The notes below the pieces were generated by a model that was not told the origin of the DNA, did not search any database, and was given only the letters and a program-made list of their open reading frames with translations. The position numbers and the translations under genes were made by a program. From NCBI RefSeq assembly GCF_016734805.1, contig NZ_JAERQG010000001.1, positions 496,001 through 560,000 on the forward strand: 64,000 bases of DNA. The letters are read 5' to 3'. This document shows positions 43,695 to 50,898 of the stretch, piece by piece. This DNA comes from Marivirga atlantica. Lineage in GTDB: Bacteria > Bacteroidota > Bacteroidia > Cytophagales > Cyclobacteriaceae. Positions within the stretch are counted from its first letter, which is position 1. The number at the start of each line of letters is the position of its first letter.

Positions 43695-44297
43695 CTAACT
43701 TTTCTTCGGTTGATATAATACGACAACTTGAATAATAATAGCTAATAAGACAAGCACATATACTTCGATATGTGTAAAAAGCTCAACCATGTCTAACTCA
43801 CGCTGGCTTATTAACATTTGTCTCTGACCTTCCTTCAGCTGTATTTCAGAAAGGCTGATAAGTACATCTTTAATCGCATGTGTTTTTTTCTGAAGCGATT
43901 CAGATTTTGAATATAAAAGAGCTTTCGGTTCATTATTGGCCTCATCACTCATTAGCGCTTCTATTTTTGACTTTAAGCTGCTAAAAGCGTCTTGTTCTTC
44001 TTTGGTGAGACTTGTTTGCTGATATGAATTCAGGAGAAGTTTTATTTCAGCATTTACTGTTGTGTTGCGTTCATTAAAGAAGGAGGAGTCTTTCTTAGCG
44101 AGCGCTAATTCTTTTTCATGAATTAGAGCAGATAATTTAAGAATGAGGTTTTTAGCAATTAAACGATCCTCATAGATAGATACTACGGAATCTTTAACTT
44201 TTGAAAAGCTATTTCTATCAATAAGATTGGTAGTGAGTATCAGGAAAAACACCATTAAAATTCCTAATACCCACTTTACTTTGTTGTATACAGTCAT
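43695..44297 (-). CDS. Orphan four-helix-bundle (4HB_MCP-like) membrane protein
   Basis: This 200-residue protein has a membrane helix at about 8-25, a long all-helical extracytoplasmic region (about 30-170, Lys/Glu/Ser-rich) and a second membrane helix at about 173-193, ending in a few basic residues. This is the layout of the MCP four-helix-bundle sensor domain, but no HAMP, kinase or methyl-accepting module follows. It must therefore act through a partner or have another role. It is a single gene with no operon partner. Family assignment rests on architecture only. Confidence 0.7.
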   Translation of the reverse strand: MTVYNKVKWVLGILMVFFLILTTNLIDRNSFSKVKDSVVSIYEDRLIAKNLILKLSALIHEKELALAKKDSSFFNERNTTVNAEIKLLLNSYQQTSLTKEEQDAFSSLKSKIEALMSDEANNEPKALLYSKSESLQKKTHAIKDVLISLSEIQLKEGQRQMLISQRELDMVELFTHIEVYVLVLLAIIIQVVVLYQPKKS

Positions 44298-45626: not shown

Positions 45627-47126
45627 TCAAAAAGTAAGTTTTAATTCTACTCGTCTATTGGCTGAACGCCCATTTTCAGTAGAATTTGATTTTAGTGGTT
45701 GGGTTTCGCCTTTGCTAATTAGATTTATTTGATTGGCATCAACTTTATTTTTTAACAAGTATTTTTGCACAATACGGCCTCTTTCTAAGCCTAGCTTATA
45801 GTTGTAATTAGAGCTTCCGACATCATCGGTATGGCCGATTATATCGATTTTAACCTGTTTATTGTCTTTTAGTATTTCAACAATTGTTGACAAATAGCTA
45901 ATGTCAGTTTTCGATAATTGAGTTTCATCAAAACCAAAATTGAATGTATAAGATGGAGATTCTACTACATGTGAAAGAAATGAAAATTTACCGGTTTTTG
46001 CCTCTTTTATTATTGAGTCGTCTGCCGGTTGAATAGTTACTTTATTAATTTTACCATTACTCTGAAGTCCCTTTGATTCTAGTGGTTTCAGAGGGTCTAA
46101 TCTTTCAATCATAAAGTGCGGTATATTATTATCTTGTTCTTCTTGGACTTTAGCTTTCTTTAAATTTTTCTTATTTCTGAAGCCTATGGCTATTTCAAAT
46201 GCACTAGAATTCACAACATTTTTGTTGAATATGGCTACATCATAATTAAAACCAAATGAGAGGTTTTTCATTTGATATTGAACTGCGCAAATTAGTTCAC
46301 TATTTGTGCTGAATTTCGTTACCAGATCTAAATGTCTTTCTTCATTTGTTATGTTATCTGGAAAGTACTGAAACCTTGCTCCAGCTAGTAATAGGTTACC
46401 GTTCTTGTTTAGGTTGATCAACGCTTCAGGCAAAATCTTTAAGCGAAGCTCTTGATATATCACTCTTTTGTAAGTTGCAAGTAAGACTGGTTCTACTGAT
46501 TCAGAAAGTGCTCCATTAGTAATAGTTGGGTTATTAATATTATAAACAGATAGACCTATTTCCTGCTCTAAGTATTTGCGTCTAGTTAGCTTTCTAATAA
46601 TAATGCCTGCATCGAGGCCAAGATAGCCATCTGTTTGATTAAGAACACCAAAGGTTTCACCAGACGGCAGTCCGGTATCGAACCCTCGGTATTCAATAAA
46701 TTGAGCACCAGTTGATAGATCCAAAGAGTTAAATGATCGCCTGCTATAGCTGGTTTGTATTCCAAAACTAATTGAAAGTAGTCTTCTTAACGGAACATTA
46801 ATAGAGTAGCCTACTCTCAAACTATTTAGTTTGTAAATTGAATTACCGCTAGTTTGATCATTTAGAAAGCCGGCATTGAACCCTGACCAAGCTCTCTTTG
46901 AATTTAAAAATGGAACTGAGACCTCTATGTTATTTGTTTCGAATCCATATTCTGTCCCAGTATTTTGTCTTCGGTGTATGAGATCTGCTTTCCAGTATGA
47001 ATCAACAGAGGAGTATGCAGGGTTTACTCTTGAATCCGAAAAGTCATACATTTTAAAATTAAAGTATTGAGCCTTCGAACTAATACAATAAAATAATACA
47101 AAAATTAGGAGAATCTTTGCTTTCAT
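45627..47126 (-). CDS. PorP/SprF-family type IX secretion protein fused to an OmpA domain
   Basis: This 499-residue protein has a signal peptide (cleaved SSKA before Gln). Residues about 20-310 form the PorP/SprF barrel, which opens with YDFSDSRVNPAYSS and contains FGVLNQTDGYLGLDAGIII. A linker of about 80 residues follows, and an OmpA-like peptidoglycan-binding domain fills about 393-499 (GHTDDVGSSNYN, LGLERGRIVQ, SANRRVELKL). PorP/SprF proteins are needed for secretion or surface attachment of specific T9SS cargoes; the OmpA domain would tie this one to the cell wall. Its ATG overlaps the stop of the type B cargo gene just upstream by 4 bases, so cargo and partner are co-translated. It is the last gene of the sigma-TonB-cargo operon. 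Confidence 0.9.
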   Translation of the reverse strand: MKAKILLIFVLFYCISSKAQYFNFKMYDFSDSRVNPAYSSVDSYWKADLIHRRQNTGTEYGFETNNIEVSVPFLNSKRAWSGFNAGFLNDQTSGNSIYKLNSLRVGYSINVPLRRLLSISFGIQTSYSRRSFNSLDLSTGAQFIEYRGFDTGLPSGETFGVLNQTDGYLGLDAGIIIRKLTRRKYLEQEIGLSVYNINNPTITNGALSESVEPVLLATYKRVIYQELRLKILPEALINLNKNGNLLLAGARFQYFPDNITNEERHLDLVTKFSTNSELICAVQYQMKNLSFGFNYDVAIFNKNVVNSSAFEIAIGFRNKKNLKKAKVQEEQDNNIPHFMIERLDPLKPLESKGLQSNGKINKVTIQPADDSIIKEAKTGKFSFLSHVVESPSYTFNFGFDETQLSKTDISYLSTIVEILKDNKQVKIDIIGHTDDVGSSNYNYKLGLERGRIVQKYLLKNKVDANQINLISKGETQPLKSNSTENGRSANRRVELKLTF

Positions 47127-49582
47127 CGCGTAAGGTGAACTTTACCTTCCTTCGAATTATTGAGTTTTAGTTCCTGATTGCTGTCTGTGAAACTTCCTGA
47201 AACTCTCCAATAGTATATCCCTGATTGAGCTGGACCACTACTACTTTCACCGTTCCAGCCACTTGAGCGCATAAATTCAGCATCTGTTGTTTCAAAGACG
47301 AGATTTCCTTTTCTATTGTAAATTTGAAAATGAAATCCTTCTACTTGGTTTAAGCCATAGATCAGTAACTTGTCATTAGTCCCATCATTATTTGGGGTGA
47401 ATAATTCTGGTATAAAAGCCTCTTTTTTAACGTTTATTCTAATACTGTCTATTGTTTGACAAGTTCCATTTTTATAGCCCTCAACATAGTAAACGGTGTT
47501 TTCTAAAGGAGATACCATAGGCTGAGGCGATTCAACATCATTAATATTCGCATTTGGTGACCAATAATAGTTATCGGCATTAGTCGCTTGTAATTGTAAT
47601 TCCTCACCTTCCGTAATTTCTATAAGGTCACCGTTTGTTATTGTTACGGATGTTGTATCGTATTTAATAGTAAGCGAATCTGCTATTAGGCATGAATTTG
47701 CATATTGATATGCTATTAAAGTATCTGAGGAAATAACATTGAATAGCTCCGAGTGTAGCGTATCTTTTTCAAAACCATTTAATTTTACCCATAAAGCACT
47801 ATCTAAAATAGTATAAGTATTTAAACTAATGTATGTAGGTTGACAAAACTCAATAGTTTCATTAGCAAATAACTCATCTCCCAGAGGTGTAATTATGATA
47901 GCATTATTATCTGAACAGTCTGCCTTATCAATACTATTATAGTAAACAGTATCCAGCTCATTAGTATTATAAATTATGCCATTGCTTATTCCTAAGAAGC
48001 CTTGATTGCTCGAATACCAAGCAGTGCGTAGTGTGTCGTTTTCTAAAATTAATGATTCGCCCTCACATGCGAACATGCTCTTATATTGTATTGAATCTGG
48101 TGAACATATTTGAAATTTTCCGCAAGCTATTCCTGGAGGGCAATCTGACGATCCTGAACCACCATTACCACTTCCATCAGTAGGGATAACAGAAAGAGAA
48201 TTGTCAATTGCTTGTATTCCATAATAGAGAGTTTTACCTATATCACCAGAAACACCAATCTCATTGGCGAATAAGAGGTTACCTCTTTGTGCTAAAATCC
48301 TATATAGCGGATAATCAACGCTATAATTAGGGGCAATTATTTCGGTTCCTCTTTCTTCAGAGCTTAATTGGATATCATAGGTATGATTTTGTTCAGGGCT
48401 GTGATCGTCAAAGGAATTCGACCAAACTAAAATGGTTCCGTTAGATGTTGTAATATCAGTATGGTAAGAGGGTCTAGATGGTCCGTAATTTTTATCTTCT
48501 TCTTTATTTTCATATTGATGAATAATATTGATACTGCTGTCTTTCGAAAGTTCCAGAATGTCCAAGTCACCATCCTCATCATTATCAAAAAACGCATTAT
48601 AAATACCAGAGGAACTTAGTTGCAGTGTATCTATATAGAAGTTTAACAGACTATCGGATTCAATTAGATATGAGTTAACCACAGAATCAGCATTATTAGT
48701 TTTTATAATTAAATCCAGATAACCATCAGAGTTGAAATCAGCCATAAAACTAAAATCAATTCTTCCTTTTATATTTGCGGCTATGGAATCAAAATTAATA
48801 CTCTTTAGTTTTGACGAGTCTTCATAAATGATTCTAATCGAATTTGACGAAGCAATGAATAGGTCTAGCTTTCCATCTAAATTAATATCACCGAATGAGA
48901 TATTGTGCACTGTGTCTACAGATATGACAGAGTCTTTGATAATTGCGCCTTTTTCATTGAAAAATATGTGCGACCCTGGGCCATGAATAGCATTTACTAT
49001 TATATCAGGATATCCATTATTTGAGATGTCAGCAAACAATAGACTCTTTTGGTTTTCGAAAGTTTCAATTTCTATGATGTCTGTAGAAAATCCGCTTTTA
49101 CTATTCTCAATCAATTGCAGTCTTGGAGAATTTAAAAGGATATCTTTATACCCGTCATTATTCCAATCAGCTATGTGAAAAGACGTTACCTTATTCACAC
49201 TTTTATTATAAATACTGTTGAGCGTATTACCGTCCAATTGAAAGACGTTCATGGATAACCTATCTCCTACATCTAACAATCCTATTATCTCTAAGCTGTT
49301 GTCATTATTCACATCTTCAAACTGTAATGGATGGGCGATAAGGCCCGGAATTATTAGTGTATCCGAGCTCAAACCCTGAACGGAATCGTACACAATAATA
49401 AATCCTAAGGAGTCATCATTAATTTGTACAATTGGATTTGGTTGCCCATCCTTATCAATATCTATCCAGTTGAGACTGTGAACATTTTTTTTATTCACAA
49501 TAATCGAATCTTGGCTTTCAAATTGTTGGGAAGTTGCCAAAAGGGGAATGAATACTAGTAGTGATATTATAATTTGTTTCAT
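47123..49582 (-). CDS. Type IX cargo with seven FG-GAP-like repeats and type B sorting domain
   Basis: This 819-residue secreted protein has a signal peptide (about 1-18, ATS before Gln) and seven DxDxDG-type repeats, e.g. DIDKDGQPN, DWNNDGYKD, DINLDGKLD, DFNSDGYLD, DNDEDGDLD. They start at residues 41, 90, 139, 185, 232, 282 and 333, i.e. every 46-51 residues. That periodicity predicts a seven-bladed, calcium-binding beta-propeller. A Gly/Ser hinge lies near 470 and Cys-containing and Ig-like regions at about 480-730. The last 85 residues are a gliding-motility-type (type B, CHU_C) T9SS sorting domain (FTPNNDGTNDKLLIYG, then GKVHLTR). It should be displayed on or released from the cell surface. 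It precedes the PorP-OmpA gene (4-base overlap). Confidence 0.93.
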   Translation of the reverse strand: MKQIIISLLVFIPLLATSQQFESQDSIIVNKKNVHSLNWIDIDKDGQPNPIVQINDDSLGFIIVYDSVQGLSSDTLIIPGLIAHPLQFEDVNNDNSLEIIGLLDVGDRLSMNVFQLDGNTLNSIYNKSVNKVTSFHIADWNNDGYKDILLNSPRLQLIENSKSGFSTDIIEIETFENQKSLLFADISNNGYPDIIVNAIHGPGSHIFFNEKGAIIKDSVISVDTVHNISFGDINLDGKLDLFIASSNSIRIIYEDSSKLKSINFDSIAANIKGRIDFSFMADFNSDGYLDLIIKTNNADSVVNSYLIESDSLLNFYIDTLQLSSSGIYNAFFDNDEDGDLDILELSKDSSINIIHQYENKEEDKNYGPSRPSYHTDITTSNGTILVWSNSFDDHSPEQNHTYDIQLSSEERGTEIIAPNYSVDYPLYRILAQRGNLLFANEIGVSGDIGKTLYYGIQAIDNSLSVIPTDGSGNGGSGSSDCPPGIACGKFQICSPDSIQYKSMFACEGESLILENDTLRTAWYSSNQGFLGISNGIIYNTNELDTVYYNSIDKADCSDNNAIIITPLGDELFANETIEFCQPTYISLNTYTILDSALWVKLNGFEKDTLHSELFNVISSDTLIAYQYANSCLIADSLTIKYDTTSVTITNGDLIEITEGEELQLQATNADNYYWSPNANINDVESPQPMVSPLENTVYYVEGYKNGTCQTIDSIRINVKKEAFIPELFTPNNDGTNDKLLIYGLNQVEGFHFQIYNRKGNLVFETTDAEFMRSSGWNGESSSGPAQSGIYYWRVSGSFTDSNQELKLNNSKEGKVHLTR

Positions 49583-49588
49583 TTTACC

Positions 49589-50332
49589 TCATTCAGATTT
49601 ACTAAAAGTTAACGGCAGACTCATTTTAGTTTCAATCGCATTACCGTTCATTCTGGCAGGTTCCCATAACGGCATGCTTAATAGGAGCCTTTTGGCTTCC
49701 TCATCAAATGCTTCACCTAATGAGTTTTCTATAACTATGTTCTTTGCTTTTCCTGCAGTATCAATGGTAAACAACACATTTACAGTTCCGCTAACCGTGT
49801 CCGGTTGATTTGTGCTTTCGGGATACCTTATTGAGTTGTTGAGATATGCGTACAATGAGTCGAAACCTACAATTGGATAAGCTTGCTGAAATCTTTCTTC
49901 TACTGTTTTGATTTTTTCAGGGCTCGACTCTTTTTGTGGTTGCTCATTTCTTTCATTGTTATTTAGCCTATCATCATTTTCATTCTGTCCTGTCTTACTT
50001 TTATGCTGATTTTCTTGAGTATCAGTTGCAGGTTTCATTTTCACTTTAATAGGTGTTGGTTCCTCTAACAGTATTGAGTCCTGCTCTAAAGCTGATATAG
50101 GGGCGAGGAAAACCTTTTTCTTCTCTTGTTTATGTCTGTTTAGTACAAATATGGAAGTGGAAAGAATAGCAAGTGCTAATATGCTCCAACTTAAGTTTTT
50201 AATAAGCCTAATTTTCTTATTTCGCTTAATGATAAATTGATTCCTTCTATGAAGTAAGCCATCGAAGTCCTTTTTACTCCGAATTTCAGCATTGCTTATG
50301 GCAGGTAATTTATGTTTTAGATTAATTTTCAT
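49589..50332 (-). CDS. TonB-like transmembrane protein in anti-sigma position
   Basis: This 247-residue protein starts with about 45 cytoplasmic residues, rich in charge (AEIRSKKDFDGLLHRRN), then one membrane helix (about 46-64), a hydrophilic Gln/Asn/Glu/Lys linker (about 66-145) and a C-terminal TonB-type domain (about 158-243: NSIRYPES, GTVNVLFTIDTAGKAKNIVI, EEAKRLLLSMPLWEPARMNG). Ordinary TonB proteins have only a short cytoplasmic start, and here the gene overlaps the ECF sigma gene by 4 bases where an anti-sigma factor usually lies. A hybrid TonB/anti-sigma role is therefore proposed, but no ZAS-type motif is seen. It precedes the T9SS cargo gene by 6 bases. Confidence 0.85.
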   Translation of the reverse strand: MKINLKHKLPAISNAEIRSKKDFDGLLHRRNQFIIKRNKKIRLIKNLSWSILALAILSTSIFVLNRHKQEKKKVFLAPISALEQDSILLEEPTPIKVKMKPATDTQENQHKSKTGQNENDDRLNNNERNEQPQKESSPEKIKTVEERFQQAYPIVGFDSLYAYLNNSIRYPESTNQPDTVSGTVNVLFTIDTAGKAKNIVIENSLGEAFDEEAKRLLLSMPLWEPARMNGNAIETKMSLPLTFSKSE

Positions 50333-50898
50333 GACTCTTCAATGGCTATTCTTATTTTATCTAATATTCTGTAACACCTTACCTTTGCATTATTTTCTGT
50401 TATGGCCAGTATTTGACCTATTTCTTTGAAAGATAGGGACTCGTAAAACCGTAGTTGTAGTAGTTCTAGCTCATGCTTCTTTATCTTTTTAAAAGCATGC
50501 TCAACGGGTTTAAAATCATCTACGTGCTCTGTAAGCTTTATTTCTTCCGATAAACTTTGAACTACATCCTCATTGAGCAAAAGCGTTTGCTTTTTCTTCT
50601 GCTTTCGGAAATACATGTTTGATTCATTGAGGGCAATCCGGTACAACCATGCACTAAATGGAGCGCCTTTTTGCTTGAACTTCTTTAGCTTTGTTATGGC
50701 TTTAAAAAAGGTGTCTGATGTTAATGATTCTGCAATATCCAGATTGGTGTGCCTCTTCAATAAGAACTTGTAAATTCGCTCATAATACTTCTCGTATAAT
50801 GGCTTAAATCTTTGAGGATTATTTTTCGCCTCCTCAATGAGTGATTTCTCTTGTTCCTGATTCACTAAGTGTTCTGTATATGAGATTAAATCTTCCAA
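50329..50898 (-). CDS. ECF-type RNA polymerase sigma factor
   Basis: This 189-residue sigma-70 family factor has region 2 at about 25-95 (PLYEKYYERIYKFLLKR, then FSAWLYRIALN) and region 4 at about 125-185 (ELLQLRFYESLSFKEIGQILAITENNAKVRCYRIL). No ATG is available in the open frame before codon 20, and the likely start is a TTG at 50898, which implies weak translation. The stop overlaps the TonB-like gene (ATGA). The operon continues with the T9SS cargo and PorP-OmpA genes, so this sigma probably controls its own envelope module. Its target promoter motif could not be read. Confidence 0.92.
   Translation of the reverse strand: MEDLISYTEHLVNQEQEKSLIEEAKNNPQRFKPLYEKYYERIYKFLLKRHTNLDIAESLTSDTFFKAITKLKKFKQKGAPFSAWLYRIALNESNMYFRKQKKKQTLLLNEDVVQSLSEEIKLTEHVDDFKPVEHAFKKIKKHELELLQLRFYESLSFKEIGQILAITENNAKVRCYRILDKIRIAIEES

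Follow-up and report, generated by a model that had tools for sequence, protein, structure and literature searches.

In the window analysed here, a stretch of 64,000 nucleotides of Marivirga atlantica, four neighbouring genes encode an ECF sigma factor, a TonB-like membrane protein, a type B cargo of the type IX secretion system (T9SS) with FG-GAP repeats, and a PorP/SprF shuttle fused to an OmpA domain. Taken as a whole, they are probably best explained as one autoregulated unit, in which the TonB-like protein acts as a membrane anti-sigma factor resembling those of class II.

Layout and conservation of the four-gene unit

All four open reading frames are found on the minus strand (Table 1), and the junctions of 4, 6 and 4 bases described in the original prediction correspond to an ATGA overlap of 4, a gap of 6 and a second ATGA overlap of 4. 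The prediction had also placed the TonB-like protein in the position of an anti-sigma factor; indeed, its gene lies directly behind that of the sigma factor, and the TonB_C domain is found behind one membrane helix, with residues 1-48 forming the cytoplasmic segment. The sigma factor contains only regions 2 and 4, as expected of an ECF sigma factor, and exceeds the cut-off of TIGR02937. Cargo and shuttle are identified as a type B pair by the CHU_C/TIGR04131 sorting domain of the former and by the adjoining PorP_SprF gene; the NCBIfam models 'T9SS type B sorting domain' for the cargo and 'PorP/SprF family' for the shuttle are both above their cut-offs. The flanking genes, infB upstream and an acyl-CoA dehydrogenase gene downstream, are not part of the unit.

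Table 1. Features of the four-gene unit, with their positions in the window
Feature	Position	Strand	Evidence
ECF sigma factor, 189 aa, TTG start	50329-50898	-	Pfam Sigma70_r2 1.2e-13, r4 1.5e-7
Putative membrane anti-sigma factor with TonB C-terminal domain, 247 aa	49589-50332	-	Pfam TonB_C 8e-10; conserved N-terminal tail; AF2 model
Conserved sigma-linked motif in cytoplasmic tail, about residues 13-27	50252-50296	-	Alignment; Phe23 nearly invariant in family
Single membrane helix, about residues 49-68	50129-50188	-	Sequence not conserved
Periplasmic TonB C-terminal domain, residues 169-243; proposed sensor head	49604-49828	-	Pfam; structure match
T9SS type B cargo, FG-GAP repeats (propeller), 819 aa	47123-49582	-	FG-GAP_3 7.6e-17, CHU_C 3.7e-15
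CHU_C sorting domain of cargo	47195-47413	-	Pfam and NCBIfam
PorP-OmpA protein, 499 aa	45627-47126	-	PorP_SprF 1.7e-20, OmpA 6.8e-21
PorP/SprF outer-membrane shuttle part	46179-47078	-	Pfam and NCBIfam
OmpA-type domain of shuttle, presumably peptidoglycan-binding	45654-45938	-	Pfam
Candidate autoregulated promoter, TGTATCTTT (-35) N11 GCATTA (-10), ~25 bases ahead of the sigma start codon	50923-50948	-	Exact match

The comparison of gene order across Cytophagales, which had been proposed as a check, found the unit in at least 25 of 148 genomes of the family, the window counted, by a search with the TonB-like protein and reading of the neighbourhoods; one of these genomes is without the sigma gene, its contig ending there. 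The unit is also present in further families of the order (f5, f9, f16, f19 and f20, the f16 copy being cut by a contig end), and 4-base overlaps are frequent among the family copies. Since the same order recurs in so many genomes and in other families, the arrangement is not due to chance. Identity among operon orthologs is 35-46% (about 40%) for the sigma factor and about 30% for the TonB-like protein; the proteins have thus strongly diverged, indicating that gene order was kept over long times. Two members of the family (L045 and L071) carry the pair of sigma factor and TonB-like protein alone, without the T9SS genes.

Some other observations were made on these loci. In one relative the PorP and OmpA parts are found on two overlapping open reading frames (L061:4370-5994), representing either a split gene or a sequencing frameshift. 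The window also encodes, at 43695-44297 on the minus strand, a protein of 200 aa with a 4HB_MCP_1 four-helix-bundle sensory domain and no signalling domain within the open reading frame. Elsewhere in the genome, a second ECF sigma factor is followed by a CarbopepD_reg_2/TonB_C membrane protein with a different N-terminal part (L003:3-1809; G000:C9, about 167636-169444), and a BlaI-type repressor by a fusion of M56 peptidase and TonB_C (L005:245-1863; G000:C8).

The cytoplasmic tail and its sigma factor

Alignment of the TonB-like proteins revealed in the cytoplasmic tail a motif of roughly K-K-I......(S)DEEI.(S)Y.(D/N)F(D).LL, whose Phe is nearly invariant, whereas helix and linker have no conserved motif; mean pairwise identity is 0.17 for the helix, 0.32 for the tail motif and 0.44 for the TonB domain. 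A profile built on the tail only is present in 56 of 241 genomes of the order and in 126 of 395 genomes of the class, while outside the class it matched one sampled genome of the phylum, a chance match to a histidine kinase. Linkage of the tail to a sigma gene is nearly obligatory: 105 non-identical copies are encoded directly behind an ECF sigma factor of one subfamily (E <= 1e-10, mostly 1e-60 to 1e-79), in loci that were gathered by the tail (within the family, by the TonB-like protein) and not by the sigma factor, with L038-L041 as exceptions. Among the true tail matches examined, L101 is the sole one lacking a sigma gene in the 1.5 kb upstream; it encodes a tail-bearing membrane protein of 90 aa (L101:1501-1773; G275:C351), possibly an orphan or displaced anti-sigma factor.

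The bodies that follow the tail are highly variable, including a TonB end, a bare anchor of ~90 aa in all, and heads of 200-600 aa, no Pfam family being matched by the large ones; in L038 and L039, found by scanning with the sigma factor, a tail without TonB domain comes directly after the sigma gene. Tail and sigma factor are all that the loci have in common and, as the bodies differ so widely, the linkage is one of sigma factor to tail. On the sigma tree, five head labels require 16 changes, compared to 57 with shuffled labels, and well-supported branches force repeated exchange. As read from these sequences, the pattern is that of a sigma-binding domain with exchangeable sensors. In four loci with large heads, L038 (7476-7886), L144, L149 and L151, the gene immediately preceding that of the sigma factor encodes a free, secreted-looking TonB_C protein of 136-163 aa; thus, TonB_C is tied to these sigma factors even when it is not fused. 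An apparent natural fusion of sigma and anti-sigma factor in L137 proved to be an artefact of ORF picking, since the two genes overlap there.

The class-wide distribution of the tail bears on the possibility that the TonB-like protein is an ordinary energy transducer for the outer-membrane protein of the operon, with the sigma gene as an unrelated neighbour. Its TonB_C fold is genuine, being recognized by Pfam and modelled with confidence in the window protein, where it superposes on solved TonB C-terminal domains, 6i97_D being the best match (rmsd 1.9). However, PorP-OmpA is not a TonB-dependent receptor, the operon is without exbB and exbD, and the helix is unconserved and does not contain the stretch common to the other short TonB proteins of the genome; moreover, the tail is bound to the sigma gene throughout the class, either with or without TonB. 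A plain energy-transducing TonB, very improbable on all these grounds, was rejected for the tail-sigma linkage and the unlike membrane helix.

With regard to the known classes of regulators, the TonB-like protein has no match to Pfam anti-sigma families up to E 1, and its cytoplasmic part, below 50 aa, does not correspond to the ASDI or zinc-finger domains of class I; a FecR-type regulator was also discarded, no FecR domain being recognized by Pfam. The layout, with a cytoplasmic domain of less than 50 aa ahead of a membrane helix and the gene beside that of the sigma factor, is instead class II-like.

The original prediction considered the N-terminal segment of ~45 residues long enough to bind a sigma factor, and proposed structure prediction of the two partners. 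Since the window genes overlap in different frames, the pair of an ortholog with the full T9SS operon (L082, identical to L109) was folded in their place; there, the genes of sigma factor and TonB-like protein share a reading frame and are separated by a single stop. The chain consisted of the sigma factor and residues 1-47 of its partner, with the stop read as glycine, and the alignment contained 13 such pairs plus unpaired rows. AlphaFold2 returned this single fused chain with a mean pLDDT of 85.8 and a pTM of 0.83, the tail helices reaching pLDDT 91-94. Only two strands are present in the model, one at sigma residues 102-104, in the linker between regions 2 and 4, and one at chain residues 193-195, corresponding to tail residues 7-9 and of lower confidence (block mean 66); as strands need partners, the tail contacts the sigma linker in this model. 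The window TonB-like protein folded alone displays a tail without strand, with a confidence of 58-79 for residues 1-20. Coevolution between sigma factor and tail was analysed on 102 pairs (effective number 72), and the top inter-protein scores exceeded most shuffled pairings, but the top pairs within the sigma factor are not sensible contacts. The class-wide linkage to the sigma gene, together with the contact predicted in the ortholog, is in agreement with the proposed role of the segment, and the tail is very probably the sigma-binding part of the TonB-like protein.

The sigma factor of L082 is predicted in a closed form, as in anti-sigma complexes, which AlphaFold2 may however prefer anyway. 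Compared to solved structures, both of its domains superpose on SigW of SigW-RsiW (Z 14.4) and on CnrH of CnrH-CnrY (Z 13.7, rmsd 3.2 over 142), while superposition of both domains on ECF sigma factors bound to RNA polymerase is obtained only with an rmsd of ~26. The tail would, with good probability, inhibit the sigma factor. The opposite reading, a positive partner comparable to FecR and required for stability or activation of the sigma factor, is unlikely: dual regulators are known among FecR-type systems and polarity, either release or retention, is not legible in sequence, but a closed sigma factor carrying the tail on its linker resembles the inhibited CnrH-CnrY and SigW-RsiW, and the FecR domain itself is lacking.

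Promoter and predicted regulon

A de novo search for dyads in the regions preceding the family's sigma genes identified the motif TGTATCTTT-N11/12-GCATTA, which is mostly located 40-120 bases upstream of the conserved sigma start. A score of at least 13 out of 15 was reached in 57 of 103 upstream regions, and in 22 of 28 of those of T9SS type, compared to 0.4% of dinucleotide shuffles. The 4.19-Mb genome contains two exact sites, one at the operon and one at a lipoprotein gene, and none for the reversed control; the second site is found just before a 170-aa lipoprotein open reading frame without Pfam family (L182:1501-2061; G000:C9:205944 onward). In 12 relatives possessing the operon there are 7 exact sites, six of which are the operon's own promoter, the seventh preceding an NHL-repeat-like lipoprotein gene. 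Since the sites are nearly unique and most of them are at the operon, the regulon of the sigma factor most likely comprises its own operon and hardly anything more. The motif thus also speaks for the earlier proposal that the sigma factor re-expresses the module, and autoregulation, as predicted from the promoter, is highly likely.

In 12 genomes of relatives carrying other heads, 2-11 motif sites are present in each, versus 0-2 for controls. Many relatives have CGTTAT as -10 box. Apart from those at sigma genes, motif sites are found ahead of gldM in six order-mates (G162, G270, G292 and G328, assigned by Pfam; G219 and G258, by coordinates) and ahead of gldN in G219, while in G206 gldN comes directly after the sigma pair. 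In family f16, the motif precedes gldM (one of two copies) and gldN at loci L225, L231, L232, L236 and L221. GldM and GldN are core (motor) components of the T9SS, and these sites suggest that the sigma family regulates T9SS core genes in the f16 relatives.

The proposed circuit and its relation to known systems

In the mechanism that we propose, the cytoplasmic tail of ~45 residues would grip the ECF sigma factor and keep it in a closed form incompatible with RNA polymerase; the single helix would span the inner membrane and the TonB C-terminal domain would reach into the periplasm. Here the head would either meet or lose a partner in the outer membrane, the likeliest being the periplasmic side of PorP-OmpA or a waiting cargo, and the signal could accordingly have either sign. 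The tail would then free the sigma factor, probably through proteolysis or a conformational change, and the freed sigma factor would direct transcription at the TGTATCTTT-N11-GCATTA promoter, both of its own operon and of one lipoprotein gene; as an outcome, sigma factor, sensor, cargo and dedicated shuttle would be made together. That the TonB head acts as a sensor appears reasonably likely, while PorP-OmpA or the cargo as its ligand is proposed only tentatively. As the TonB head shares the periplasm with the shuttle's OmpA domain, a mutual contact is conceivable, co-location alone being no argument for it.

The same sigma/anti-sigma pair could also be directed at a wider signal, with the TonB head sensing the general state of envelope, peptidoglycan or outer membrane, or another outer-membrane protein, and with cargo and PorP as output only; this has a little less than an even chance. 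TonB-headed pairs recur without T9SS genes, in L045, L071, L110, L120, L128 and L132-L136, so that the ligand need not be the cargo or the shuttle of the window; in addition, other heads work without any TonB domain, TonB_C also ends two other regulators of the genome, and the presence of the motif ahead of gldM and gldN in relatives suggests that the sigma family may monitor secretion or the envelope in general. On the other hand, all 30 loci of the non-redundant set in which cargo and PorP come next carry a TonB-type head, hinting at a head matched to them, as the proposed circuit would imply.

Among known anti-sigma factors, the closest in layout is the class II CnrY of Cupriavidus metallidurans, which holds CnrH closed with a cytoplasmic domain of less than 50 residues ahead of the helix. 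The modelled L082 sigma factor superposes on CnrH and some members of the tail family are bare anchors of ~90 aa; conversely, the tail family has a strand on the sigma linker in addition to helices, and its periplasmic heads are diverse, with TonB in the window, the likeness to CnrY being one of structure and layout. The FecI-FecR and FpvI-FpvR systems also combine an ECF sigma factor with a single-pass regulator and a signal from an outer-membrane protein, the latter only proposed here, and the sigma factor drives the genes of that system. Differently from them, the window regulator has neither FecR nor STN domain and carries TonB_C fused to itself, and its proposed outer-membrane partner is a PorP/SprF shuttle instead of a TonB-dependent transducer.

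The original prediction presented the circuit as a new kind of feedback, and this holds in part. Feedback from a cargo to an ECF sigma factor has a precedent in Porphyromonas gingivalis, where PorA, a surface protein with a T9SS CTD, acts on T9SS gene expression through PorXY and the autoregulated ECF sigma factor SigP (PMC7712824). There, however, a two-component system with a PglZ-type PorX lies in between, whereas in the window a single membrane protein, encoded within the operon, would serve as regulator; it is this putative one-step TonB/anti-sigma hybrid that is new, and the literature searched contained no TonB/anti-sigma protein. In Flavobacterium psychrophilum, the ECF-type SM6 promoters, with a CGT -10 box, are found ahead of an ECF sigma/anti-sigma pair, gldN and porU (PMC9723704). 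They resemble the CGTTAT -10 boxes and the gldM/gldN targets of the relatives, which does not imply that their sigma/anti-sigma pair is the same as that of the tail family; unlike here, no type B cargo operon is listed among the SM6 targets (PMC9723704). To find the shuttle gene immediately behind that of its cargo is ordinary, as for SprB-SprF and Fjoh_3952-3951 (PMC12618676), but the window differs in that the shuttle has a fused OmpA domain and that the pair is preceded by dedicated genes for a sigma and a putative anti-sigma factor. Neither a cargo and shuttle under a private sigma/anti-sigma pair nor the tail family was found described in the limited literature searched.

The chances are about even that the tail represents a family of short anti-sigma domains that is so far undescribed, extends over the class Bacteroidia and has exchangeable heads in the periplasm, and that this family and its ECF sigma factor jointly control the T9SS: gldM and gldN in some lineages, and a TonB-headed, self-reporting cargo-shuttle module in the lineage of the window. 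In a published survey, class I anti-sigma genes were neighbours of only 6% of ECF sigma genes in Bacteroidetes but of 32% when all phyla were taken together, and its authors suggested that anti-sigma factors of other classes could prevail in Bacteroidetes (PMC7406223). The tail family, for which a tail motif and a promoter motif are defined and the predicted regulons are short, is a concrete candidate for filling part of this gap. Should the TonB head read the shuttle or the cargo, it would provide a one-protein route from a secretion event in the outer membrane to transcription.
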